Shown here piece after piece: positions 6,936 to 44,575 of a stretch of DNA of 45,100 nucleotides. The notes beneath the pieces are model-generated. The model was not told the origin of the DNA and ran no database searches. It saw only the letters and a program-made list of their open reading frames with translations. Position 1 is the stretch's first letter; each line of letters opens with the position of its first letter. The stretch is from NCBI GenBank assembly GCA_031283105.1, contig JAITCL010000053.1:1-45100 (forward strand), read 5' to 3'. Source of the DNA: Treponema sp. (GTDB taxonomy: Bacteria; Spirochaetota; Spirochaetia; Treponematales; Breznakiellaceae). The position numbers and the translations under genes were made by a program.

Positions 6936-8022
6936 TGTAAAAGCAATCTTGAAAATTTCACTTATTTCCTCAATAGGAGACCTTCCGCCCGAACTGGCGG
7001 CTTCGGTAAGCCTTGAAGAAAAAAACTACATTGCCGAAATACAGCGGCGCGGTTTGCTGCCTTTTGCCGTAACGCCGCATTTTGCGTCGCTGGCGCGTCC
7101 CGAACAAGACGACCCCATCAGGCGGCAATTTTTTCCCGACCCCCGCGAGGCTTTACCCGATCCTTGTGCGTTGAATGATCCGCTGGGCGAATACCGTTTT
7201 CGCGCCGCGCCCCGTCTGGTTCACCAGTACCGCGACCGGGCGCTGTTGCTTGCCGCGGGAACCTGCGCCGGATATTGCCGCCACTGTTTTCGGCGTGTGT
7301 GGCTTTCTTCGGTTTCCTCTAACGGTATGGAAGAACTACAGCCCGAACTGGCGTATTTGGCGGCGCACCCTGAAATCCGGGAAATTCTTCTTTCCGGGGG
7401 CGATCCCCTGACTTTGGATAATGCCGTTTTAAGCGATTTATTCCGCCGCTTGCGCGAAGCGCGGCCGGGCGTTTTGCTCCGTGTGTGTACCAGGGTTGCC
7501 ATAACGGAACCTTTGCGGCTGGACAGCGAAACTATTGCCCTGTTTGCCGCCTTTCGCCCTTTGCGGCTGGCGGTTCAGATTAACCACCCGCGGGAACTTT
7601 CCGCCCCAAGCCGCGCCGCCCTGGCCGCCTGTGTGAACGCCAGTATTCCCATACACGTACAAACCGTGCTGCTACGGGGCATTAACGATGATCCGGCGCT
7701 GCTTGCCCAACTGTTTCAGAATTGCCTTGACTTGGGATTATCGCCCTATTATTTGTTTCAGATGGATCTTGCGCCGGGAACCGCTCATTTCAGGGTTCCG
7801 CTCAAGCGGGGCATTGCCATTTACCGTGAATTGGGCGGCTTAATTTCCGGCCCGGGCCTGTCGGCTTATGCGGTAGACCTTCCCGGCGGCGGCGGCAAAA
7901 TTCGCCTGCACGAAAATGTTATTGCCGGGGAAAAAACCACCCCTGCCGGGAACGTGTATGTTCTGAAAGACAGTAACGGCGGAGAATGGTATTACCCTGC
8001 CGGAGACGAAATTTATTCTTGA
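6901..8022 (+). CDS. KamA-family radical SAM protein (lysine 2,3-aminomutase / EpmB-like)
   Basis: A 373-residue radical SAM enzyme. The cluster motif CAGYCRHC (C-x3-C-x2-C) followed by FRR at about residue 121 is diagnostic for the KamA/EpmB group. ILLSGGDPL near residue 161 is the GGDP-type SAM-contact motif. Near the C-terminus, VDLPGGGGKI and the lysine-rich tail resemble lysine 2,3-aminomutase PLP and substrate sites, while the length suits EpmB-type EF-P beta-lysylation enzymes. The reaction would convert L-lysine to beta-lysine, free or for EF-P modification; this cannot be settled here. The ATG at 6901 overlaps gguB by 35 bp and has no good Shine-Dalgarno, so the start may lie later. 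Confidence 0.85.
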   Translation: MSTPAEKPVWVDVKAILKISLISSIGDLPPELAASVSLEEKNYIAEIQRRGLLPFAVTPHFASLARPEQDDPIRRQFFPDPREALPDPCALNDPLGEYRFRAAPRLVHQYRDRALLLAAGTCAGYCRHCFRRVWLSSVSSNGMEELQPELAYLAAHPEIREILLSGGDPLTLDNAVLSDLFRRLREARPGVLLRVCTRVAITEPLRLDSETIALFAAFRPLRLAVQINHPRELSAPSRAALAACVNASIPIHVQTVLLRGINDDPALLAQLFQNCLDLGLSPYYLFQMDLAPGTAHFRVPLKRGIAIYRELGGLISGPGLSAYAVDLPGGGGKIRLHENVIAGEKTTPAGNVYVLKDSNGGEWYYPAGDEIYS

Positions 8023-8034
8023 AGAAATATGCCG

Positions 8035-8889
8035 TTATTGTTTCGGCACAAACCGGTAGCCTGTTCCGTCAGCCTCTACCGCGCCAACGGCGGGATAAAC
8101 AATGTGCATACCTGCTACCGGAACTTTGTTTTTTGCCGCATAGTCCATAATTTGCCGTCGTGAAGCGGCGGCGGCTTTTGGGTCAACATCGTACGTTGCG
8201 GAAATATCCGGCGCGGGAAACTGGACAAGCGCTACGTGCAAAAAGTCACCGGCAATAAGCAATTTTTCCTTGCCGTCTTCTATCAAATAAGCAGTATGGC
8301 CGGGAGTATGCCCATACGTGGCAATGGGGGTAATCCCCGCAAGAAGCTCTTTGAGTTTTGAGCCAAATGCGCCGGGTTCAAACGTTACCACCCGCGAACC
8401 ATAGGGAGCCAACGCCGCTACTGCCCCGGCGTTCACCTGGGTTTTGGTAAAAAAATCCCGCTCTTTGGAGGACAGGTAAATCTTCGCTTTGGAGAAAAGG
8501 GCCTTGCCGTCTTTCTGGAGGCCGCCGGTATGATCCCCATGCAAATGGGTAAGCAGTACCGCGTCAATTTTATCCGGTTCTACTCCCAGTTTTTTCATTT
8601 TTTCAAAAACCGCCCCGCCGAAACCGGTATCCACCAAAATAGTGTGTTTGGGCGTTTTAATCAGGAAAGTATTGGTCGAGTGCATAAAGCCGCTTTCGGG
8701 AATATACTTCTTCAAAAAGGCTTCGTCCACGCCAATAAGTATCCCGGTATTCCCCTCACGCTGGGTTTCAACCAGCATGAACACTTCAATTTTTCCCACT
8801 TTACAGGAAAAAATCCCGTCAGTTTCCGCGGCAAAACCTCCGGCGGCTATCATGCCGAAAAACAGGCCCAACATCATTTCTTTTTTCAT
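8035..8889 (-). CDS. Exported metallo-beta-lactamase-fold hydrolase
   Basis: A 284-residue protein with a signal peptide (MKKEMMLGLFFGMIAAGGFA-AE) and an MBL-fold domain. Metal ligands are in LLTHLHGDHTGG near residue 112, the histidine of TYGHTPGHT near 190, the aspartate of LIAGDFLH near 210, and a late histidine in VAGMHIVYP. The overall form resembles quorum-quenching or AidC-like secreted MBL hydrolases, but the substrate is unknown. I chose the ATG at 8889, preceded by AAGGAGAT, over upstream in-frame ATGs because it starts a proper signal peptide. It converges on the radical SAM gene with only 12 bp between the stops. Confidence 0.85.
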   Translation of the reverse strand: MKKEMMLGLFFGMIAAGGFAAETDGIFSCKVGKIEVFMLVETQREGNTGILIGVDEAFLKKYIPESGFMHSTNTFLIKTPKHTILVDTGFGGAVFEKMKKLGVEPDKIDAVLLTHLHGDHTGGLQKDGKALFSKAKIYLSSKERDFFTKTQVNAGAVAALAPYGSRVVTFEPGAFGSKLKELLAGITPIATYGHTPGHTAYLIEDGKEKLLIAGDFLHVALVQFPAPDISATYDVDPKAAAASRRQIMDYAAKNKVPVAGMHIVYPAVGAVEADGTGYRFVPKQ

Positions 8890-8917
8890 GGTTATCTCCT
8901 TCATTAAGATCATAAGT

Positions 8918-8945
8918 ATTATACACTCATATTTTAAACTTTCAA
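8918..8945 (-). promoter_or_regulatory. Promoter of the exported MBL hydrolase
   Basis: Minus-strand -35 TTGAAA (8940-8945) and consensus -10 TATAAT (8918-8923) with a 16-bp spacer. The predicted leader is about 22 nt and carries the AAGGAGAT ribosome site, so this is a conventional leadered promoter. Confidence 0.6.
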
Positions 8946-8947
8946 TT

Positions 8948-9400
8948 TCAATTTTTGAGCAGTTTTACCAGAATGCGATCCAGACTGTCGGCAAAGGCTT
9001 TACGCTCCTTCTTGCCGTAATTTGCCGTCCGTTCCACACCCAGGCCGTTTTCGGCAAGACCTACCGTAAAATTCCGCAGGGACAGCAGTTCGTTGATGCT
9101 GTCACGGGAAAAGACTTTCCCCCGGTCGTCAATGACGGCAACGTCTTTTTCCAGAAGCCGCTTTGCCAGAGCGATGTCGCGGCTAATGGCAAGGTCTCCC
9201 GGTTCGGCCAACTCTACGATGCGGTTGTCGGCGGAGTCGTCCCCGGGCGGGCAAATTTCCATAGTAATATTTTCCCCGCTGATTCCCGGTACGGGGCGGT
9301 TTGCGGCAAATACCGCCGGTATCCCCCGCCGCCGGGCGGTACGCAGGGTCAGTTCCCGCGCATCCCGCGGGCAGGAATCGGCATCGACAAAAATTTTCAT
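8948..9400 (-). CDS. yaiI: YaiI/YqxD family protein (UPF0178, DUF188)
   Basis: A 150-residue protein with the family hallmark start KIFVDADSCPRDARE, an internal DLAISRDIALAKRLLEKD block and a VIDDRGKVFS segment. The family has a PIN-like nuclease fold with conserved acidic residues (visible D6, D8 and others), but its physiological substrate is not established. Its ATG overlaps the manA TGA by 4 bp, so it is translationally coupled and is the last gene of the infC-to-yaiI run. Confidence 0.9.
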   Translation of the reverse strand: MKIFVDADSCPRDARELTLRTARRRGIPAVFAANRPVPGISGENITMEICPPGDDSADNRIVELAEPGDLAISRDIALAKRLLEKDVAVIDDRGKVFSRDSINELLSLRNFTVGLAENGLGVERTANYGKKERKAFADSLDRILVKLLKN

Positions 9401-10596
9401 TGCGGCACCGATGCAATATACAGGGTGAAATGTCCCTGTAATATCAGGGGGGGGGTATCGCCGGCGGCGGGGAAAAAAGCCGATTCTCCCTGTTTAAGAA
9501 CCGTGCCGGAAACAGAAACCTCCCCCTCGGTAACAATGCCTATTGAAGCGCTTTGGGCAAACGCTTCCGGCAATGATACCACGCCGCCGGTACCGCGCAT
9601 CACCGTAAGGGAAAATTCCTCGCAGGGGGCCGGGTAAGTGAAGCAGGAAAAATTTGTTTCCGGTTTATTAATCTGCGGTTTTAAGGGATTAAAGTCCAGC
9701 GCCTTCATCAATTCAGGAATATCAATATGTTTTGAAGTAAGCCCCCCTCTCAGCACATTGTCGGAATTTGCCATTAACTCTACGCCAAAACCCTGAATGT
9801 AGGCATGGAGAACCCCGGCTTTCAAAAAAAATGCCTCGCCCGGTTCAAGGCGGAAAACATTCAGGTAAAGGGGCGCTATCACCGCCGGATCGCCGGGGTA
9901 GAGCCGGGCAAAATTCCGCATAAGTTCCCATTCGCAATTTTTCGCGCCGTTAACCGAAAGTATAAATTCCGTCAGCGCATTTTTGACTGCCGGAGAAAAG
10001 TTAAAAAGAATTTCAAGAAAATTCCGCAGGGCAGTAATAGGATTCGGTGTTTCAAGCGACTGCAATAATGGGGCAAAACCTTCGCGTACCGGGGCGGACG
10101 CTGAATCGAGAAAAAGGGCAAAAAGCCGCCGTATTTCATCGGGACTGCGAAAGCCGCACATACCGGTAAAGGGCGTAAGAGCGCAGATTATTTCCGGCTT
10201 GTGGTTTGAATCCCGGTAATTGCGATGGGGGGCGTCGTGCGCCAGTGCGATCTTGTTCTCCCGTTCAAAGCCTTTACGGGCTTGAGTCAAATTCGGGTGA
10301 ACCTGAATCGACAGCGGCTTTTCCGCGGCGATCAGTTTGAGAAGAAAGGGAAGAACGCCGTACCGCTCCGCTGTTTTTTCCCCCAGATAACGGCGGGGAT
10401 CGCGGGCGATAAATTCCCCCAAACTCATTTCACCTGACGGCAGACTGACCAGTGAAGGAGAACCGGCATGGCTGCCCATCCACAGTTCCGCGCATGGTTC
10501 GCCATTGTTTGCGAATCCCATTAACCGGGGAATAAAATCCGGTGAACCCCAGTCATAATGTTTAATCTGATTGCGGAGTTTATAAAAATTAGCCAT
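9397..10596 (-). CDS. manA: Class I mannose-6-phosphate isomerase
   Basis: A 399-residue type I phosphomannose isomerase that interconverts mannose-6-P and fructose-6-P. It shows YDWGS near residue 14, CAELWMGSHAGSPS near 34, the zinc-ligand segment SIQVHPNLTQA near 92, and HKPEIICAL near 126. The C-terminal cupin contains a C9 tract (9447-9455 as plus-strand G9). The ATG at 10596 overlaps the zapA stop. This start gives the family N-terminus and avoids an upstream TTG extension. Its position after cell-division genes suggests operon growth rather than a functional link. Confidence 0.93.
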   Translation of the reverse strand: MANFYKLRNQIKHYDWGSPDFIPRLMGFANNGEPCAELWMGSHAGSPSLVSLPSGEMSLGEFIARDPRRYLGEKTAERYGVLPFLLKLIAAEKPLSIQVHPNLTQARKGFERENKIALAHDAPHRNYRDSNHKPEIICALTPFTGMCGFRSPDEIRRLFALFLDSASAPVREGFAPLLQSLETPNPITALRNFLEILFNFSPAVKNALTEFILSVNGAKNCEWELMRNFARLYPGDPAVIAPLYLNVFRLEPGEAFFLKAGVLHAYIQGFGVELMANSDNVLRGGLTSKHIDIPELMKALDFNPLKPQINKPETNFSCFTYPAPCEEFSLTVMRGTGGVVSLPEAFAQSASIGIVTEGEVSVSGTVLKQGESAFFPAAGDTPPLILQGHFTLYIASVPQ

Positions 10597-28817: not shown

Positions 28818-29438
28818 TCATAATTGGTCTATTACAAAACAGATTTCATTATTTACTATTTCAACCATTCCACGAAAATGAGATACAATGCTCTGATTAT
28901 GTATAATATGAAAAAGATTATCAGACATAGGTATAAAATATACAACTATTTCTGTTTCATCATATCCAGTAATTTTTCCACGCATATATTCACTTTGTTC
29001 CATCGATAAACTCCCAAAAAGATAAATTTCTTTACCTGCATAATCATTTGAAAACATTTTTAAATACCAAATATCTATAAACCTATATTGTGATGCCTCA
29101 ATAATTATTAATTCCTGATTAATAATTATTTGCTCCAAAACCTGTATTCTATGGTTAAGTGTTTTCCTTAAAGAATTTAATACTAAACGCCTATAATTTT
29201 GACCGGATTGATTTCTACAATTATTTTTTTCTCTCATCCAAAAAATAATTTGCGCATTAAATATGTCCAAATTTGATTTATTATTAATAATATTCAGTAA
29301 ATTATTAGTTAAATCATTGATTTTGTTATTTAAACGCTTTATTTCAGGGTCATTTTCAATTAACTCCTGAATAATATCTTGAGAAAAAGCCAGGTTAATA
29401 GCTGTAAAAAACAACAAAATCAATATTAATTTTTTCAT
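28818..29438 (-). CDS. Small exported protein with LprI-like region
   Basis: A 206-residue A+T-rich product with a signal peptide ending AFSQ. A segment near residues 60-100 (IFWMREKNNCRNQSGQN, then a Leu-rich helix) resembles the DUF1311/LprI pattern (W-x-x-R-x-x-C followed by a helix), a family that includes lysozyme inhibitors. The C-terminal half is beta-rich and unplaced. It has its own promoter (TTGACG 29468-29473, TAATAT 29445-29450, spacer 17) 6 nt from the ATG. Base composition differs sharply from flanking core genes, indicating transfer. Confidence 0.65.
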   Translation of the reverse strand: MKKLILILLFFTAINLAFSQDIIQELIENDPEIKRLNNKINDLTNNLLNIINNKSNLDIFNAQIIFWMREKNNCRNQSGQNYRRLVLNSLRKTLNHRIQVLEQIIINQELIIIEASQYRFIDIWYLKMFSNDYAGKEIYLFGSLSMEQSEYMRGKITGYDETEIVVYFIPMSDNLFHIIHNQSIVSHFRGMVEIVNNEICFVIDQL

Positions 29439-29488
29439 AAAATTATATTATCATATAATTAATATATCGTCAATATATAAAAATCATC

Positions 29489-29505
29489 AAAAACTTGCAC
29501 ATAAC
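29489..29505 (-). repeat. Internal copy of the 17-bp island motif
   Basis: Minus-strand GTTATGTGCAAGTTTTT, identical to the copy at 30682-30698. It sits 2 bp after the end of the 178-residue ORF and just before the promoter of the LprI-like ORF. Confidence 0.6.
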
Positions 29506-29507
29506 GT

Positions 29508-30044
29508 TTATTTTTTCTGTTTATATAAACATAAATGGAAAACAATTTCGTAACTATTAAACCTGCTATTGTTTATATAAAAATTGTATCTGTAAAATAT
29601 TTTAAATAATGTTGACAAACCTATTCCTGCTTCGGGAGCAAGACCGATATTTATATTATTTTTATCAGCAGCAATAACCATTGAACCTCCCAATAGAATT
29701 CCATTGGTAATATGATAATAAAATCGATTATAAATTATATTATCTTTATAATTATATTCAAATAATAAACCAAAATCATCTCCAAAAGGATGATGTCCTC
29801 CATCACTGCCAAGCTTCCCAAAAAATATTCCCATTCCCGACCTGAACTTGTTAAATCCGCTAAATGAAAATACTAACCCCATTAATGGTTCGGAATCTTT
29901 ATAGCTTTTAGCCCGTCTTTCATCTTCATTATTTTCATTTTGATTTATTGTTTCAATGTTTTCGTTTTCTTCAATGTGTATATTCTCTTGTGCATTAATA
30001 AAATTAGTTAAACATAAGAAAACTATAACAAGATATTTTTTCAT
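29508..30044 (-). CDS. Small exported protein, possible outer-membrane beta structure
   Basis: A 178-residue A+T-rich product. A signal peptide ends around FINAQ and is followed by an Asn/Glu-rich linker. Residues about 50-178 show alternating aromatic beta-like strands (LMGLVFSFSGFNKFRSG, LLFEYNYKDNIIYNRFYYH) and end on the polar tail YKQKK. No family is recognised. It has both a promoter (TTGACA 30092-30097, TATAAT 30068-30073, spacer 18) and a GGAG ribosome site. Confidence 0.6.
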   Translation of the reverse strand: MKKYLVIVFLCLTNFINAQENIHIEENENIETINQNENNEDERRAKSYKDSEPLMGLVFSFSGFNKFRSGMGIFFGKLGSDGGHHPFGDDFGLLFEYNYKDNIIYNRFYYHITNGILLGGSMVIAADKNNINIGLAPEAGIGLSTLFKIFYRYNFYINNSRFNSYEIVFHLCLYKQKK

Positions 30045-30107
30045 TATATCTCCATGAGAGTAATATAATTATATAACAATATTTGAAAATTTGTCAAGTA
30101 TTTTTTG

Positions 30108-30635
30108 TTATTTTTGAATACCATCATAAACATGTATTTTTTTGTATCCATTTTCTTTATATAATTTTATTTTTTCATTTTCATCAAATTGATAGTCAGG
30201 AACAAAATCAATGAAAATATTGATACCATTTATTTTTGTATATAACCTCCCAAATTTTCTATATACCGGTATAAAAATGAATAAATTGTCCGGTTCAATA
30301 TTTTTATAATAAATTTCCATCATATCATCGAATACTAAATCGGTATCAAAAGGCAAATTTATTATTTCATCAGGCAAATAATTTATTAGTATATGATTAT
30401 CATTAGGCTTATTCTTTTTATGAGATGAAATAAATATATATAAATGATTCATGGATATACCCCAAATGCGAGTTTGTATGTATATTTTTTTATTTATTTC
30501 CCTGAAGTTAATATACGCAGAATGTTCTTCATCCATATTTGCTATTGTTACAATATACCAAAATGATCTACACGAGTACAAAGATATTATCCCAAAAACA
30601 ATAATAAGAAATAAAAATATTATAAATTTTTTCAT
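30108..30635 (-). CDS. Small membrane-anchored or lipoprotein-like protein, unknown
   Basis: A 175-residue A+T-rich product starting MKKFIIFLFLIIVFG with a possible lipobox (SLYSC near residue 21). The remainder (IWGISMNHLYIFISSHKK, LIFIPVYRKFGRLY-like segments) is not recognised. The upstream extension to 30737 is open but lacks a ribosome site and runs into the pbpC end. A promoter TTGACA (30665-30670)/TATAGT (30642-30647), spacer 17, lies 6 nt before ATG 30635, which fixes this start and suggests a leaderless mRNA. Confidence 0.6.
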   Translation of the reverse strand: MKKFIIFLFLIIVFGIISLYSCRSFWYIVTIANMDEEHSAYINFREINKKIYIQTRIWGISMNHLYIFISSHKKNKPNDNHILINYLPDEIINLPFDTDLVFDDMMEIYYKNIEPDNLFIFIPVYRKFGRLYTKINGINIFIDFVPDYQFDENEKIKLYKENGYKKIHVYDGIQK

Positions 30636-30681
30636 TATATTACTATATGTTATTTTGAATATTTTGTCAATTATTATTTTT

Positions 30682-30698
30682 AAAAACTTGCACATAAC
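30682..30698 (-). repeat. Right boundary copy of the 17-bp island motif
   Basis: Minus-strand GTTATGTGCAAGTTTTT, 17 bp after the pbpC stop. Together with the inverted copy at 28792-28808 (15/17 match) it brackets the A+T-rich island. Confidence 0.6.
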
Positions 30699-30714
30699 TT
30701 TATATATCCTCCCT

Positions 30715-33117
30715 TCACTCCGTCGCCATTTCCACACGTACGCGAATTCCCGAAGAGCGCCCTAAATTGTCTACCACAGAAATATCCCACAGCCCCGGTT
30801 CCGGCGACCAGACAAAACGTTCTCTGGGTTTTGCCCGTCCTAAAAAACTGGCGTTGGCAAACCAGAAAAGTTCACCTGCATCCTGATCCGCGGCAGCGAG
30901 AAGTACCATCTTGTTATAATTACTGTCCACAGGCAGTCCCGGACGGATAATGTAGGCGGTGTTTGCAAGGGGTGAAATTATTGACGGTGGAAAACCGCTT
31001 ACGGGAGCGCCGTTAGCTGAAGTGTCAGGCGGATAGGGCGGAGGTGAAAAACGCGGAAGACCCGCGGCTTCAAAAATTTCCAAAATGTCGGAAGGCCAGA
31101 ACTCACGGACTTCACTGCGGATATAGGGGCCTTCGCTTTCGTTTGTACGGTAGCCGGTGCGGGTGTCGATGTAAACTTTGCGGTGAATCCGGCAGCGGTT
31201 AATCGGGGAAACGCCGGGGATAAAAAGCGTTTCTATTAATTGAGGGCAGTCATCGGCGGGAATGTCACCGGAAATGGCGCATACCTGCACTGTTTTAACT
31301 TCCGGCGGCAGGGGCCGCTGCGCGAAAAGTTTATCGTAAGGAATCTCCGCAAGTATCGCGTCTATTATGCTAAAACTCAAAGGGGCGGCGCTGAGCCTGC
31401 CAATAAATGCGCTGTTTCCCTCTCCGGAGAAATTTCCCAGCCATACGCATAGCACATAACGGTCAAAAATAGCGATAGACCACGCATCCTTAAAACCGAT
31501 GGAAGTGCCGGTCTTGTAAGCCACAGACGCTGAACGTCCGGCATTTGCCCGCAAATCGTCAGGCGCGGGATTTCTTTCAAGCATCTTCACGGTAATCGCC
31601 GCCGCCGCAGGGGTTAAAATTCTTTCTCCCGGCGCGGTATTCCGCGCCACAGTACTCTGCGCCGCAGGATACTGCGCAAAATCCTGCGTATAAAAACGAA
31701 GTTCCTTTTTTACTCCGTTATTTGCAAGTGCGGCGTACAGCGAAGCCAATTCCAGCATTGTCAAATCCGCGCTGCCCAACACTACGGAAAGGCCGTAATG
31801 CCTTTTTTCTTTCAGACCGGAAATTCCTGCCAGTTTCAGAAAATCGTAAAGGTCGGGGTTGTGAATATCCTTTGCAAGTTGTACGGCGGGAATGTTCCGG
31901 CTGTCTACCAGAGCGTACCACGCGCTTAACGGCCCCTTAAAATCGCCGCGAAAATTATCCGGTGTGTACTCGCTAAAACCAACAGGCGTATCCTTCACCA
32001 TTTTTTCAGGATGAATCAATCCCTGCTCCAGTGCCAGCGCGTAGATAAAAGGTTTAAGGGTTGAACCCGGAGAACGTTTAGAAGCGAAGCCGTTCACCTG
32101 CCCCTGAATGTCATCGTCAAAATAATCCGCCGAGCCTACCGCCGCCAGCACTTCCATACTTGAATAATCAACAAGAAGTATACTGCCGTTTTTTATCCCC
32201 CATCCCCTGTTACGCACAAGAAAATATTCCAGTTCCCGTTCGCACATATTTTGCAGAGTTAAATCAATGGTAGTGCGATTACGGTTTGTTACAGACAGAT
32301 TTGCCTGAGGCAGCGCCTTCGGCAGAAGCTGCGTATTAAGGTACTCGGTTAGGTGAAGAAGCCGACGGGGAAACCGGTTTACCAGAAAGGGAGGCAGATC
32401 CATCTCTGTTTCCAAAAGAGCGTCTTCGGGGTGTTGTTCCAGCCATGCCTCGTACAGTATTCTGCGGGAATCTATCAATTCGGTTGAAGGCCGCCTGTTC
32501 AATGGTGCGCGTTTTGCGGGATTTTGGGGAATCACCGCAAGGCTTAAAATTTCAGATAACGAAAGTTCTTTCACGTCCTTGTCAAAGTAGTACCATGCCG
32601 CCGTTGCAAAGCCTTCGATGTTGCCGCCGCAAGGAACCATGTTAAGGTAGGCTTCCAGAATTTCCTGTTTCGAATAACATATCTCAAAAAAAATCGCCGT
32701 AAAACTTTGGGCGATTTTTCCCGGCAGGTTTCGGGTGTACAGGTTATAACGCAGACGTGCAAGCTGCATGGTAATAGTCGAAGCGCCCATGCGGCGGTTT
32801 CTTTTTACATAGGTTTCCCATCCCGCTTTTAACATGGACATCGGGTTAAGTCCGATATGCCCGTAAAAATAACGATCTTCCTGAAGCAGCGTTGCTTCAA
32901 TAAGCGCGGGCGGAAAATCCGCCAGATTTGCCCGAAGGCGGTACTTGTCGTCGGGTGTAAGAAAAATGTTAAGCAGTTTGCCGCTGCGGTCAAAGTAGGC
33001 GCGGGAAAAAGAAACGCCGTTTAATATATCCAAAAAAACGGCGTTAATAACAAGAAAAAGAACAAGGACAAGACAGAGACCGCAGGGTATCCATTTGAGT
33101 CCCGGCTTCAGTTTCAT
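30715..33117 (-). CDS. pbpC: Penicillin-binding protein 1C (bifunctional glycosyltransferase/transpeptidase)
   Basis: An 800-residue class A PBP. An N-terminal membrane helix (about 10-30) is followed by the GT51 domain with LLQEDRYFYGH near residue 78 (catalytic Glu) and GASTITMQLARL near 110. The transpeptidase shows SPGSTLKP (SxxK, near 350), SRN (near 405) and KTGTS (near 535). A C-terminal BiPBP_C region has the CAISGDIPADDCP cysteines near 640. It polymerises and crosslinks peptidoglycan. ATGA overlap with the alpha-2-macroglobulin gene reproduces the well-known pbpC-yfhM pairing, where the macroglobulin is thought to protect a cell during wall repair. Confidence 0.95.
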   Translation of the reverse strand: MKLKPGLKWIPCGLCLVLVLFLVINAVFLDILNGVSFSRAYFDRSGKLLNIFLTPDDKYRLRANLADFPPALIEATLLQEDRYFYGHIGLNPMSMLKAGWETYVKRNRRMGASTITMQLARLRYNLYTRNLPGKIAQSFTAIFFEICYSKQEILEAYLNMVPCGGNIEGFATAAWYYFDKDVKELSLSEILSLAVIPQNPAKRAPLNRRPSTELIDSRRILYEAWLEQHPEDALLETEMDLPPFLVNRFPRRLLHLTEYLNTQLLPKALPQANLSVTNRNRTTIDLTLQNMCERELEYFLVRNRGWGIKNGSILLVDYSSMEVLAAVGSADYFDDDIQGQVNGFASKRSPGSTLKPFIYALALEQGLIHPEKMVKDTPVGFSEYTPDNFRGDFKGPLSAWYALVDSRNIPAVQLAKDIHNPDLYDFLKLAGISGLKEKRHYGLSVVLGSADLTMLELASLYAALANNGVKKELRFYTQDFAQYPAAQSTVARNTAPGERILTPAAAAITVKMLERNPAPDDLRANAGRSASVAYKTGTSIGFKDAWSIAIFDRYVLCVWLGNFSGEGNSAFIGRLSAAPLSFSIIDAILAEIPYDKLFAQRPLPPEVKTVQVCAISGDIPADDCPQLIETLFIPGVSPINRCRIHRKVYIDTRTGYRTNESEGPYIRSEVREFWPSDILEIFEAAGLPRFSPPPYPPDTSANGAPVSGFPPSIISPLANTAYIIRPGLPVDSNYNKMVLLAAADQDAGELFWFANASFLGRAKPRERFVWSPEPGLWDISVVDNLGRSSGIRVRVEMATE

Positions 33118-40666: not shown

Positions 40667-40701
40667 TGTGTCCGAAAAAGTTTATCAATCTTTCGGACAC
40701 A
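40667..40701. terminator. 35-bp inverted repeat between DUF167 and the left invertase
   Basis: TGTGTCCGAAA (40667-40677) and TTTCGGACACA (40691-40701) pair perfectly over 11 bp around a 13-nt loop. T9 lies 8 nt beyond on the plus strand, so it may terminate the DUF167 message. Its place at the edge of the recombinase block also makes it a candidate recombination or insertion boundary. Confidence 0.45.
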
Positions 40702-40706
40702 ACCCA

Positions 40707-41309
40707 TTACTTTTTTTTTGGCATTCGTTCCTTCATAAATTTAGCTACAGTCATACGATCAACCCCAAGAATTCGCCCTATAGCGCTTTTTGATGTATGT
40801 TTATCAAGGAGTTTTTGTATTTCCTTTTCATGCCCTGTTAATTTAACTTTTGATGGCTTTTTACCAAATGGACGTCCAAGCACAACCCCTTCAGAACGCT
40901 TGCGGGCAAGAGCTTCCTTTGTCCGTTGGGATATTAAATCCCTTTCAATTTCAGCGGATAAAGCAAAGGCAAAAGCAAGAACCTTTGACTGGATATTGTC
41001 GCCTAACCGGTAATTATCTTTGATAGTCCATACCCGTACACCAGTATTCATTAAATGATTCAAAATGGACATAATCATAAAAAGGCTTCTTCCAAGACGT
41101 GATAATTCAGAACATATTATCAAATCGTCTTTTTTGACTTCCGCAAGAAGCGGGCCTAAAAGCCGTTTTTCAGGTAATTTAGTACCGCTGATTGTTTCTT
41201 CAATCCATTGTTCAATTTTGAGATCGTTCTTTAAACAAAATCGCTCAATCTCAAACCGTTGGTGGTCAACCGTTTGTCTGTCCGTGCTGACCCTAATGTA
41301 ACCGTAAGT
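40707..41309 (-). CDS. Serine DNA invertase (Mpi/Hin-like), left copy, start codon missing
   Basis: Two hundred codons of a small serine recombinase of the Mpi/Hin/Gin class. The resolvase domain begins TYGYIRVSTDRQTVD, with the catalytic Ser in YIRVSTDRQ, then CSELSRLGRSLF and AEIERDLISQRTKEALARK. A C-terminal Hin-type HTH follows (SAIGRILGVDRMTVAKFM). Alignment with the right copy shows ACT TAC GGT shared, but the codon where the right copy has ATG is TTA here, preceded by a T11 run, and no usual start or Shine-Dalgarno exists. The first alternative is a TTG at 41123, which would drop the catalytic Ser. It is either silent or needs rearrangement. Confidence 0.8.
   Translation of the reverse strand, partial: TYGYIRVSTDRQTVDHQRFEIERFCLKNDLKIEQWIEETISGTKLPEKRLLGPLLAEVKKDDLIICSELSRLGRSLFMIMSILNHLMNTGVRVWTIKDNYRLGDNIQSKVLAFAFALSAEIERDLISQRTKEALARKRSEGVVLGRPFGKKPSKVKLTGHEKEIQKLLDKHTSKSAIGRILGVDRMTVAKFMKERMPKKK
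41296..41309. repeat. 14-bp inverted repeat at invertase starts, left arm
   Basis: Minus-strand ACTTACGGTTACAT, exactly matched in inverse orientation at 43090-43103. It covers codons 2-6 of both invertases and marks where their upstream sequences become unrelated. Confidence 0.6.
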
Positions 41310-41371
41310 TAAAACAAAAAAAAAAAGATTTAGTTAGTTATTTATCGTCATAGCAATAAATGCAGAATTAA

Positions 41372-42178
41372 ATGACCGGTTATATTAAGCAGCACAGTTC
41401 AACACTCGAATTCCTTTCCGGTAATTCATGGGTTATTCTTAATCCCATAGAAAAAAGGATAAAAGAAAAAATAGAGCGCGTTGGGACACCGCTTAAAGAT
41501 TGGGATATTTCAATCAATTATGGTATAAAAACAGGGTGTAATGAGGCGTTTATCATTGACAAAACCAAACGTGATGAGCTTATCGCAAAAAACAAAAAAT
41601 CTGCCGAAATTATACACCCGATTTTACGTGGCAGGGATATTAAGCGATATGGATATGAATTCGCAGAACAATACATTATCGCCACTTTTCCGAGTAGGAA
41701 ATATGATATTGATGATTATCCCGCTGTACGTGATTATTTACTTAAATATGGCAAACAGAAACTTGAACAATCGGGAAAACCAGGAGCAAGGAAAAAGACC
41801 TCGCACAAGTGGTTTGAAACCCAAGACCCGATAGCTTATTGGGACGATTTTTCCAAGCAGAAAATATTTTATCCAGATATAACTGAAAGATTGAGTTTTT
41901 GTATCAGCGATGAAGAGATTTATTGTAATAATACGGCTTATTTTTTAGTATCAAATACAGAAAACCTTGAATATATTTTAATGTATCTAAATTCCGATCT
42001 TATTAATTGGTATTATAAAACTCTATCAGTGCAACTGGGGGAAACTGCTGTTAGAATGTTTTCCATCTATGTATTAAATATTCCAATCCCTAAAAATGGA
42101 GATGAAGATATTTTTAGATCATATAAATTAACAAAAAATGAAATAGAGTTTATTCTATCTATATCTTATAATTCTTAA
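41372..42178 (+). CDS. Orphan TaqI-like specificity domain of a type IIG enzyme (left)
   Basis: A 268-residue free-standing domain. Residues about 15-95 are the conserved linker-to-TRD segment of type IIG restriction-methylases: SWVILNPIEKRIKEKIE, GTPLKDWDISINYGIKTGCN, EAFIIDK and PILRGRDIKRYGYEF. Residues 95-268 are the variable recognition part, including KKTSHKWFETQDPIAYWDDF near 140 and ending with the helix region NEIEFILSI. Nuclease and methylase domains are absent, so it cannot restrict alone; it should only supply DNA recognition. Start ATG 41372 has a TAA directly before it and no Shine-Dalgarno. It faces the right copy. Confidence 0.8.
   Translation: MTGYIKQHSSTLEFLSGNSWVILNPIEKRIKEKIERVGTPLKDWDISINYGIKTGCNEAFIIDKTKRDELIAKNKKSAEIIHPILRGRDIKRYGYEFAEQYIIATFPSRKYDIDDYPAVRDYLLKYGKQKLEQSGKPGARKKTSHKWFETQDPIAYWDDFSKQKIFYPDITERLSFCISDEEIYCNNTAYFLVSNTENLEYILMYLNSDLINWYYKTLSVQLGETAVRMFSIYVLNIPIPKNGDEDIFRSYKLTKNEIEFILSISYNS
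41595..41641. repeat. 47-bp inverted repeat inside the specificity ORFs, left arm
   Basis: 45 of 47 bases match 42750-42796 in inverse orientation, while coding sequence on both sides is much more diverged. It encodes KSAEIIxPILRGRDI in the same frame in both ORFs, at the border between the conserved and variable parts. Confidence 0.75.
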
Positions 42179-43022
42179 TAAAATCTTCATATTGCTGTAA
42201 TTCTAAAGTAAGAATTAATGCTTTTTCTATTCTTAAATCCGAATAATCTTTACCTTTTTGAATATCTTCTACAAGAAGATCAAAATCCTCAGAAATAAGG
42301 TTTTCAATTGGAGGGATTTTGACCTTTTCAAAAAAGACTTTAGACAATTCTCTTGTTCCTCCCTTCAATTCTGGGAAATTATCTCTATAACATATTTTAA
42401 AAACATTTGAGTTAAAAAAGGCAGTCAAATAAGTTAAATGATTTCCTGTAATAATAAAGCATTTTTGATTTACCATAAAGCCATTATTATCATACAAGAA
42501 AGGCAAAAATTTTGTCATGTTAGGATATACAATTTTCTGCTTGGAAAAATCGTCCATATAAGCACAGCTACGCAAATTATAAGGCGTATTACCTTGATCA
42601 TCTCTATCTCTAATTTTATCCCAATATTCATCAAGATGCTTTTTTATTGCAGGATATTTTTTAATATCAATAGGCGGAATATTTTTTGATGGTATTCCAT
42701 TGTGTGTATTTATCAAATATAAATCAGAAAAATTTGCCTGATAGCGGGCAATGTCCCTGCCACGTAAAATCGGGCGTATAATTTCGGCAGATTTTTCATC
42801 TTTTTTTACTAATTCATCTCGTTTTTGTTTATCAATAATAAAGGCTTCGTTGCAGCCGGTTAATATTCCCCGATAAATATTTATATCCCAATCTTTTAAC
42901 GGTTTGCCAATTTTCTCAATTTTTTCTTTAATTCTTTTCTCAATATCAGATAGTATTACCCAGCTTTGTCCATTAACAGGAAACGAAGTGGAATTTCCAT
43001 ACTGCTTAATATAATTTTTCAT
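42159..43022 (-). CDS. Orphan TaqI-like specificity domain of a type IIG enzyme (right)
   Basis: A 287-residue partner of the left domain. The N-terminal 95 residues are clearly related (SWVILSDIEKRIKEKIEK, GKPLKDWDINIYRGILTGCN, PILRGRDIARYQANF). The rest differs: NTHNGIPSKNIPPIDIKKYP near 105, YMDDFSKQKIVYPN near 160, and a Leu-rich C-terminal helix ending EDFIKNYKI. Different variable halves imply different recognition sequences. It overlaps the left ORF tail by 20 bp in a convergent layout. ATG 43022 is the first start in an open frame after an A-run; no Shine-Dalgarno is seen. Confidence 0.8.
   Translation of the reverse strand: MKNYIKQYGNSTSFPVNGQSWVILSDIEKRIKEKIEKIGKPLKDWDINIYRGILTGCNEAFIIDKQKRDELVKKDEKSAEIIRPILRGRDIARYQANFSDLYLINTHNGIPSKNIPPIDIKKYPAIKKHLDEYWDKIRDRDDQGNTPYNLRSCAYMDDFSKQKIVYPNMTKFLPFLYDNNGFMVNQKCFIITGNHLTYLTAFFNSNVFKICYRDNFPELKGGTRELSKVFFEKVKIPPIENLISEDFDLLVEDIQKGKDYSDLRIEKALILTLELQQYEDFIKNYKI
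42750..42796. repeat. 47-bp inverted repeat inside the specificity ORFs, right arm
   Basis: Inverse counterpart of 41595-41641. Recombination between the arms would invert 1108 bp and exchange the variable halves in frame. Confidence 0.75.
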
Positions 43023-43086
43023 TTTTTTAACACATAGCCGTAGAAAATTTGCAGAATAGAAGCATAAAACTTATTTGGAGGTTACT

Positions 43087-43692
43087 ATGACTTACGGTTA
43101 CATCAGAGTCAGTACAGACAGGCAGACAGTTGACAATCAACGCTTTGAAATCGAAAGGTTTTGCATCAAAAATAATATAAAAGTGGAGCAATGGATTGAA
43201 GAAACTATCAGTGGTATGAAATCACCCGAAAAGCGACTTTTAGGCTCTCTGCTAGCCGGAGTCAAGAATGATGATCTTATTATTTGTTCTGAGTTGTCTC
43301 GGCTCGGGCGTAGTTTATTTATGATTATGTCTATACTCAATTATTTAATGAATAATGGTGTTAGAGTATGGACAATTAAAGACAATTATCGGCTTGGTGA
43401 TAATATTCAATCAAAAGTATTAGCATTTGCTTTTGGTCTATCTGCCGAAATTGAAAGAGACTTAATATCTCAAAGAACTAAAGAAGCCCTAGCTCGTAAG
43501 CGGTCTGAAGGAATTATTTTAGGCAGACCAATCGGTCGAAAATCTTCTTGTGTTAAACTTTCTGGTCATGAAAAAGAGATACAGGAACTTTTGAACAAGA
43601 AAACTTCAAAAAGTGCTATAGGCCGTATCTTTGGCGTGAACAGAATGACAGTCGATTCTTTTTTAAAAGAAAGAATGTCAAAGAGCAGTTGA
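43087..43692 (+). CDS. Serine DNA invertase (Mpi/Hin-like), right copy
   Basis: A 201-residue intact serine recombinase: MTYGYIRVSTDRQTVDNQ with the catalytic Ser near residue 9, ICSELSRLGRSLF near 65, the AEIERDLISQRTKEAL long helix near 120-140, and a Hin-type HTH with SAIGRIFGVNRMTVDSFL at about 175-192. The length suits invertases and not large integrases. GGAGG (43076-43080) is 6 nt before ATG 43087, so it should be well translated. Mpi-type enzymes can invert many dispersed sites. It points outward from the right specificity domain, mirroring the left copy. Confidence 0.9.
   Translation: MTYGYIRVSTDRQTVDNQRFEIERFCIKNNIKVEQWIEETISGMKSPEKRLLGSLLAGVKNDDLIICSELSRLGRSLFMIMSILNYLMNNGVRVWTIKDNYRLGDNIQSKVLAFAFGLSAEIERDLISQRTKEALARKRSEGIILGRPIGRKSSCVKLSGHEKEIQELLNKKTSKSAIGRIFGVNRMTVDSFLKERMSKSS
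43090..43103. repeat. 14-bp inverted repeat at invertase starts, right arm
   Basis: Plus-strand ACTTACGGTTACAT, the inverse of 41296-41309, starting one base after the ATG of the right invertase. Confidence 0.6.
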
Positions 43693-43841
43693 ACAAGAAC
43701 AAAAGTAATCTGATTAATGTAAAAGTACCAGACAAAGCAGCACCGGTTGCCTGTCATCGTTTTGGTATAGTATACCCTGACAAGCCCTATGCTAAAGTTA
43801 ACGTAGGGCTTCACGGTTATACTTATGTTATTTTAACCTAA
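43689..43841 (+). CDS. Small 50-residue ORF coupled to the right invertase
   Basis: An open frame starting at TTG that overlaps the invertase stop as TTGA. It reads NVKVPDKAAPVACHRFGIVY then PDKPYAKVNVGLHGYTYVIL and stops 2 bp into the regulator's 3' end. The composition looks protein-like, but I recognise no family. It may be a coupled small protein or the tail of a gene broken by insertion of the cassette. The palindromes GGTATAGTATACC (43764-43776) and AAGCCCTA/TAGGGCTT (43782-43811) lie inside it. Confidence 0.35.
   Translation: MNKNKSNLINVKVPDKAAPVACHRFGIVYPDKPYAKVNVGLHGYTYVILT
43782..43811. terminator. Hairpin between the right invertase and the LuxR-type gene
   Basis: AAGCCCTA (43782-43789) pairs perfectly with TAGGGCTT (43804-43811) around a 14-nt loop, in the gap of two convergent genes. 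No clean T-run follows on either side, so termination is only likely, not shown. Confidence 0.35.
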
Positions 43842-44575
43842 CCCCTAAACCCCATAAGCTCCTCCACCGGCAATATCCCCTTCGACACCGCCAGTTTAAG
43901 AATCCCCACCATGTTATGAATTCCGAATTTCTGATAAATGTTGGATATATGGTTCTGCACCGTCCTACGGCTCAGCATTAAGACCGAGGCGGTTTCCCTC
44001 CCATTCTTCCCCTCTACGGCGCAGCGGACAATCTCAATCTCCCTGTGGGTCAAGTGCGGCTTAATTTCAGGAAGGCGGCCGTATTCATCAAGGCTGTCTT
44101 TTAAGTAAGAAGGAACAGCCTGCTGTTTCCCAAACACAGCCTCCACAGATTCCCTGATTTCCCTATCGTTGTCCCGCAGAGACAGGTAGCTGCCCATGCT
44201 CCAGCACAAATAGCGGGCCGCCACACCCAAGGGCAAAGTGGAAGCCGAAAACAGCGCCAGCCGCAGCTTCGGGTATTGCTTGCGGATATAATCCAGCATG
44301 CCAACCGTCCTTTCGCCAAAGAAAATATCCTCAACAAAAGCCATTACCGTGTCAGCCTTCCCGGCGTATTCGGAAAAATCCGATTCTCTTTCCACCAGGT
44401 AAAAAGCGTACCCCTTTTGCTCATAACGCTCCAGATAACGGTAAATCCAATCCTGTACGCTCCTGTTATCTGAAGCCACGATAACCATCTTCGCGCCCAA
44501 GCCCCTATATCCCTTTCGGATACAGGCGGAAACAAGATTGCCCGTCGTCGTCCTGGTATTATTTTCCACAATCAT
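43838..44575 (-). CDS. LuxR-type HTH regulator with receiver-like N-terminus
   Basis: A 245-residue protein. Residues 30-160 resemble a response-regulator-like alpha/beta domain (KMVIVASDNRSVQDWIY, TVMAFVEDIFFGERT, LRLALFSAST), but the usual DD...D...K phosphorylation set is not clear, so it may be phosphorylation independent. Residues 175-235 are a LuxR/GerE HTH: LTHREIEIVRCAVEGKNGRE and SRRTVQNHISNIYQKFGI. It is a DNA-binding transcription factor. Its ATG overlaps the stop of the small HTH gene (ATGA), so both are one unit. Confidence 0.85.
   Translation of the reverse strand: MIVENNTRTTTGNLVSACIRKGYRGLGAKMVIVASDNRSVQDWIYRYLERYEQKGYAFYLVERESDFSEYAGKADTVMAFVEDIFFGERTVGMLDYIRKQYPKLRLALFSASTLPLGVAARYLCWSMGSYLSLRDNDREIRESVEAVFGKQQAVPSYLKDSLDEYGRLPEIKPHLTHREIEIVRCAVEGKNGRETASVLMLSRRTVQNHISNIYQKFGIHNMVGILKLAVSKGILPVEELMGFRG

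Follow-up and report, generated by a model that had tools for sequence, protein, structure and literature searches.

A probable remnant, orphaned and locked, of an invertible type IIG locus for restriction-modification in a Treponema genome

Inversion of hsdS in type I restriction-modification systems, for example in Streptococcus pneumoniae, swaps the DNA-recognition parts of the modification enzyme (PMC4948785). In the process named DOMO, described for Helicobacter pylori and two further species, target recognition domains of separate specificity subunits change position by way of the conserved repeats that flank them, the recombination machinery being left open by the authors (PMC3077401). 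Another study reports a phase-variable type IIG enzyme that switches in expression. In the literature searched, the coverage of which was partial, no report was found of invertase-driven switching at a type IIG locus. Programmed inversions in type II systems, in which the specificity end is swapped with an inverted partial copy, were reportedly predicted by Milman, Yelin and Kishony (NAR 2023), and the canonical invertible type IIG form described below is not claimed as new. The locus reported here lies on contig JAITCL010000053.1 of a Treponema sp. metagenome-assembled genome (MAG; GCA_031283105.1), and the whole contig (C139; 45,100 nucleotides) was used as the analysed window, so that both ends of the window are contig ends. 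It consists of two orphan type IIG recognition domains between two serine invertases. A first-pass annotation, made from the sequence alone, had taken it for a free-standing store of recognition modules conferring phase-variable specificity; we do not read it as such a store, and regard it as what is probably left, orphaned and locked, of an invertible restriction-modification locus of type IIG.

The four genes are arranged as invertase (minus strand), TaqI_C open reading frame (ORF; plus), TaqI_C ORF (minus) and invertase (plus), with the recognition ORFs tail to tail. This mirror layout, with the strands and order originally given, was borne out by the ORF coordinates and by Pfam matches, the Pfam scan having taken in eight ORFs at and beside the locus. 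The resolvase catalytic domain PF00239 was present in both invertases (E 5.6e-32 for the right copy and 5.5e-16 for the left, which is listed as a 138-aa ORF). The two recognition ORFs matched TaqI_C (PF12950; E 7.1e-20 and 6e-12; 71.9 and 46.3 bits against a cut-off of 26.5) and no other Pfam family at E 0.001; no HsdS-type specificity domain was thus found in either, nor was the Eco57I-type methylase that a type IIG enzyme has in the same chain found in these 268- and 287-aa ORFs. Identity between the two is 44%; their first part hardly varies, and the differences fall in the remainder. The two halves of the locus form a diverged inverted duplication, made up of a 593-nt arm and a 222-nt arm that are each 73% complementary, and this duplication is old.

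Both recognition ORFs begin at the linker that joins methylase and recognition domain in relatives, and a profile built from eight such domains aligned to the 585-aa methylase BseCI over residues 333-576 (E 1.4e-14). Because of this match the window ORFs seem to be nearly complete recognition domains that lack a catalytic part, and the earlier description of them as starting at the linker and having no catalytic portion was upheld by the alignment to relatives and by the PF12950-only matches. Open frames starting with an ATG, together with the BseCI match, would also suit separate proteins acting in trans in the manner of specificity subunits or inhibitors. We give this explanation hardly any weight, since no Shine-Dalgarno sequence was seen ahead of either ORF in the window sequence and no partner enzyme was found in the assembly; moreover, the ATG belongs to the crossover site, and in the longer genes of two relatives (L065 and G013, described below) it codes for a linker residue.

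The arrangement in relatives was examined for comparison. Of 146 genomes, 41 gave a match to the invertase and 35 a match to TaqI_C, the source genome being counted in both. The canonical layout comprises a gene encoding both methylase and recognition domain, together with an invertase and a spare domain in inverted orientation, often with matched crossover sites in the linker. In the congener Treponema sp. Co191P3bin32 (L065/L190; genome G021), an invertase 82.5% identical to the right invertase of the window accompanies a spare domain; the type IIG gene that this domain faces is split into several frames in the assembly. One copy of a perfect 24-bp inverted repeat lies where the spare ORF begins and the other in the linker of the long gene. 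Genomes G120 (one contig) and G135 (two contigs) have this layout with the gene intact. In genome G013 the site and the invertase open one contig, while the site and the methylase (domains DUF7149, DUF7814 and Eco57I) open another, and the initial 36 bp, within which the site lies, are common to both contigs.

A larger set of 82 loci, comprising 78 kept of 109 relatives from a scan of the genome collection and four from a viral scan, was classified by layout; three of them (L190, L200 and L218) are from genomes already in the comparison. The script accepted any frame matching both methylase and domain, without a length cut. By this rule 37 of the 82 loci were canonical (methylase-plus-domain gene, inverted spare and nearby invertase), and in six of these the longest such frame was shorter than 1000 aa, so some are broken or split. 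A methylase-plus-domain gene alone was found in 10 loci whose contig ends within 2.5 kb and in a further 10, and one locus had the gene and an invertase without a spare. Gene and spare occurred together in four loci cut by a contig end, in two without an invertase, and in one with a distant invertase. There were nine single spares and five spare pairs with one member cut by a contig end; two more pairs (L250 and L268) have an adjoining methylase frame and look on the map like broken full genes. The remaining locus, L207 of a Clostridia MAG (7369-9853), has a complete spare pair, one invertase and a 33-bp exact site repeat. No methylase was found in the stretch examined, and by eye a regulator and an IS200-type transposase stand in its place; L207 is the nearest likeness to the mirror form of the window. 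None of the maps of the 82 loci showed that mirror form with its two invertases, although in many of them a contig end hides one side; many of the genomes compared are drafts, and several break at these sites or close to them. Among the names in the record titles are Streptococcus, Lactococcus, Prevotella, Chryseobacterium, Clostridia, Alphaproteobacteria and Treponema. In a sample of 390 genomes from the order, 15 matched the domain profile at 1e-20 and eight had two copies; six of these eight have a full-length or broken partner gene, one is cut by a contig end, and the window has none.

The first-pass annotation had called for a full type IIG gene matching either ORF to be sought in the same genome; it was sought with three queries and none was found in the assembly. 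The Eco57I domain (PF07669) gave no match in the source assembly and matched in 11 of 14 control genomes. The G013 methylase gave no match in the source assembly and matched nine of the 20 genomes searched, four strongly (G013, G021, G045 and G059); the G120 methylase, used in a search without a positive control, gave none in the source assembly either. No third TaqI_C domain was found there. The orphans and invertases of an invertible type IIG locus are present, and the full gene that would complete it was not found. A pattern for the crossover site, allowing up to two mismatches, occurred in the source genome at one place besides the left site, within a 337-aa ORF on contig C161; no system genes were matched around it, and the reversed control pattern also gave one place.

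The crossover sites of the window differ from each other. The left site reads TGACCG and the right TGAAAA, giving centres of GACCG and GAAAA, and the exact match between them is 13 bp long and lies entirely in one half-site. A loose pattern for the site failed to match 70 of 136 anchors, in part owing to differences in the half on the invertase side, so exact repeats between the two sites of one locus were used instead. An exact inverted repeat of at least 15 bp was found at the linker position in 29 of the 41 eligible loci (of the 82), as against 15 of 400 cross-locus control pairs; 36 of the 400 control pairs reach at least 12 bp, which is near the 13 bp of the window. The repeat often starts at AGCG or GAGCG. 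Hin-type enzymes need the same 2-bp core in both sites. From this rule, and from the palindromic repeats beside the invertases of L070, L072 and L081, which centre on AC between CG and CG, we infer a 2-bp core, AC or AG, that would be required in both sites; two matching inverted sites sharing such a core were not found in the window.

Two further observations were made on repeats in relatives. The invertase relatives at L070:6339-7118, L072:5792-6550 and L081:5266-5999 sit between their own inverted palindromic repeats, and an invertase gene of this type may itself be an invertible element. In further type IIG loci of the order, namely L063 (4778-4826 and 8978-9026), L073, L075 and L080, long inverted repeats were seen at the NPPY motif beside an invertase; these are possibly a different exchange point, at which part of the methylase would be carried along.

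The two invertases of the window share 84.5% protein identity and 72.7% DNA identity over 600 nt. The left copy has TTA where the right has ATG, preceded by a run of 11 A residues, and no Shine-Dalgarno sequence was seen before it by eye. Its whole frame is open and keeps in frame the serine of the YIRVST stretch, which we take to be the N-terminal catalytic serine, with no ATG, GTG or TTG upstream of it; the ORF caller yields only the 138-aa product from an internal TTG, without that stretch. The right copy is translatable with YIRVST and has GGAGG five bases ahead of its ATG. The features of the locus are listed in Table 1.

Table 1. Coordinates of features of the locus in the window.
Feature	Position	Strand	Remarks
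Left serine invertase	40707..41309	-	Frame open throughout, without start codon; TTA at ATG position
Altered 5' region of left invertase	41310..41340	-	A11 run, no ATG, no Shine-Dalgarno sequence seen; by-eye comparison with upstream regions of L065 and L087
Left crossover site (putative)	41363..41388	+	cagaattaaatg-ac-cggttatattaa; conserved GACCG centre retained
Orphan recognition ORF 1 (TaqI_C), 268 aa	41372..42178	+	PF12950
Conserved block coding SAEIIxPILRGRDI	41595..41641	+	96% identity to inverted partner; putative inner exchange point in relatives
Orphan recognition ORF 2 (TaqI_C), 287 aa	42159..43022	-	PF12950
Inverted partner of SAEIIxPILRGRDI block	42750..42796	-	96% identity to the block at 41595..41641
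Right crossover site (putative)	43006..43031	-	gttaaaaaaatg-aa-aaattatattaa; centre not conserved
Shine-Dalgarno-like GGAGG of right invertase	43077..43081	+	Read from sequence
Right serine invertase, intact, 201 aa from ATG	43087..43692	+	PF00239

In the working form of such a locus, a serine invertase would recombine a pair of inverted sites in the linker that joins methylase to recognition domain, thereby fusing the methylase to one of two tail-to-tail domains and leaving the other as a silent ORF beside the invertase. In the lineage of the window, a second invertase copy would have taken the place of the methylase half next to the second domain, or that half would have been lost in its favour; the copy does occupy the position that the methylase half has in relatives. 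Recombination at the shared site between two such loci would be the simplest route, and the loss of the right site's centre and of the left invertase's start codon would be later lesions. The parts, the canonical form in relatives, the empty methylase searches and the two lesions are observed; we infer the replacement itself, this order of events, the action of the invertase at these sites and the failure of the mismatched sites to recombine. The proposal of phase-variable type IIG specificity by inversion in the first-pass annotation divides: it holds up for the family, with its canonical loci, site repeats and exchanged modules (see below), and it is not supported for the window. A working phase-variable store in the source genome is unlikely on the present sequence because no methylase was found (nor a third TaqI_C domain), the site centres differ and one invertase is without a start codon.

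Several points weigh against reading the locus as a locked remnant. The MAG (2.79 Mb in 167 contigs) is 94.6% complete with 7.1% contamination, so a methylase could be unassembled. Twelve of the 41 eligible relatives also have no exact 15-bp site repeat, among them T. putidum (L200), where the repeat at the site is only 9 bp, and T. parvum, where it is 13 bp; a mismatched site alone is no proof of locking, because T. putidum shares it and its genes look intact. All four frames are still open, and the protein identity of the invertases exceeds their nucleotide identity, a difference suggesting that the protein was under selection while most of the divergence arose, so that any decay would be recent. 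The open frames, the intact right invertase with its good ribosome site and the intact left site would also suit a live store whose type IIG methylase lies in an unassembled part of the genome, the right invertase exchanging domains with it in trans; in G013, too, methylase and invertase are on separate contigs that break exactly at the site. This is nonetheless improbable, as all three methylase searches were empty, the centre of the right site differs, and the site pattern recurred only on C161, at a frequency equalled by the reversed control.

Exchange of modules between relatives was compared by protein segments in 12 sequences; the full genes of L117, L119 and L189 were dropped because the motif failed, and no segments were obtained from the L189 orphan. 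When G120 (L063) is compared with T. putidum (L064), the linker segments keep their position, the two full genes sharing 97% DNA identity there and the two spares likewise. The G120 full gene and the T. putidum spare copy, on the other hand, share 98% identity in the first recognition module and 100% in the conserved block preceding it, whereas the linker and end parts of the same pair are 69-70% identical. In T. parvum (L236) the linker types are in opposite positions (94% and 87% in protein; 89% and 81% in DNA). ORF 2 of the window has a linker nearer to the L065 full gene (82% vs 71%) and a first module nearer to the L065 spare (84% vs 69%); the linker of ORF 1 is undecided between the two (77% and 78%), and its first module is nearer to the L065 full gene (78% vs 70%). 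These patterns are best explained by inversion at the linker together with exchange at the inner conserved block. Swapped recognition halves, which the first-pass annotation had proposed looking for in related genomes, were thus found in Treponema species as exchanged module positions. The resemblance of the ORF 2 linker to the methylase-linked type of L065 lends weak support to the replacement proposed above.

The flanks of the locus were compared within the genus. On the left, the metallo-hydrolase gene was matched in 17 of 39 genomes, the source included, and the LuxR-type gene to the right (43838-44575) matched only itself among the 39 (E 1e-30). When ten regions from nine genomes were compared, three had a YggU-like gene beside the metallo-hydrolase gene and none matched the right neighbour; no clear ancestral or empty site was found by synteny in these regions, the three with the YggU-like gene differing in their downstream genes. 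A right neighbour unmatched in the 38 other genomes would fit a fusion, in assembly, of two strains or of two loci with the same site, in which case the mirror would not exist in one cell. The contamination of the MAG and the contigs that start at the site (two in G013 and one in G018) point the same way. We think such a mis-joined contig unlikely, because there is little shared sequence to join on (the longest exact inverted repeat between the halves, 24 bp, lies within the recognition ORFs, and the site centres differ) and because the tail-to-tail middle agrees with relatives.

Other observations concern the surroundings. A hairpin-like repeat (TGTGTCCGAAA..TTTCGGACACA) is located at 40667-40701, between the YggU-like gene and the left invertase, and the G+C content at 29001-31000 is low (0.255 and 0.300 per kb) and differs from that of most of the contig. 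In relatives (L144 and L145), the region downstream of the YggU-like gene holds either CRISPR-like repeats (G003) or large ORFs resembling a type I restriction system by eye (G023); the spot next to the metallo-hydrolase/YggU-like pair may therefore be a site for defence genes.

As an orphaned remnant the locus is of minor importance in itself, and its analysis gave a clear picture of a widespread arrangement of type IIG gene, inverted spare and serine invertase, in which matched linker sites are often present and inner modules also reassort. The sites, modules and genomes given here allow direct tests of switching and methylome change in cultured relatives. There is a slim chance that the mirror element is instead a self-contained carrier that would move recognition modules through the linker site into type IIG genes of other loci or cells, with no methylase of its own; if so, it would represent a new way of spreading restriction specificities.

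Compared with known systems, the locus differs from invertible type I systems in that HsdS is a separate subunit, whereas the domain here is the TaqI_C end of a single-chain enzyme. The shift in position of the first module between L063 and L064 is a likeness to DOMO. The phase-variable type IIG enzyme with expression switches is alike in being a phase-variable type IIG enzyme; its switching is said to be by a repeat tract, and it is not known to exchange recognition domains. In the systems of Milman et al., a full gene reportedly faces a partial copy, whereas in the window both copies are partial and a second invertase occupies the position of the methylase half. The closest loci are those of T. 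putidum (L064/L200), T. parvum (L236) and Treponema sp. Co191P3bin32, which share with the window the invertase family, the domain, the tail-to-tail order and the spare beside the invertase, but which have the methylase (broken in L065) that was not found for the window.

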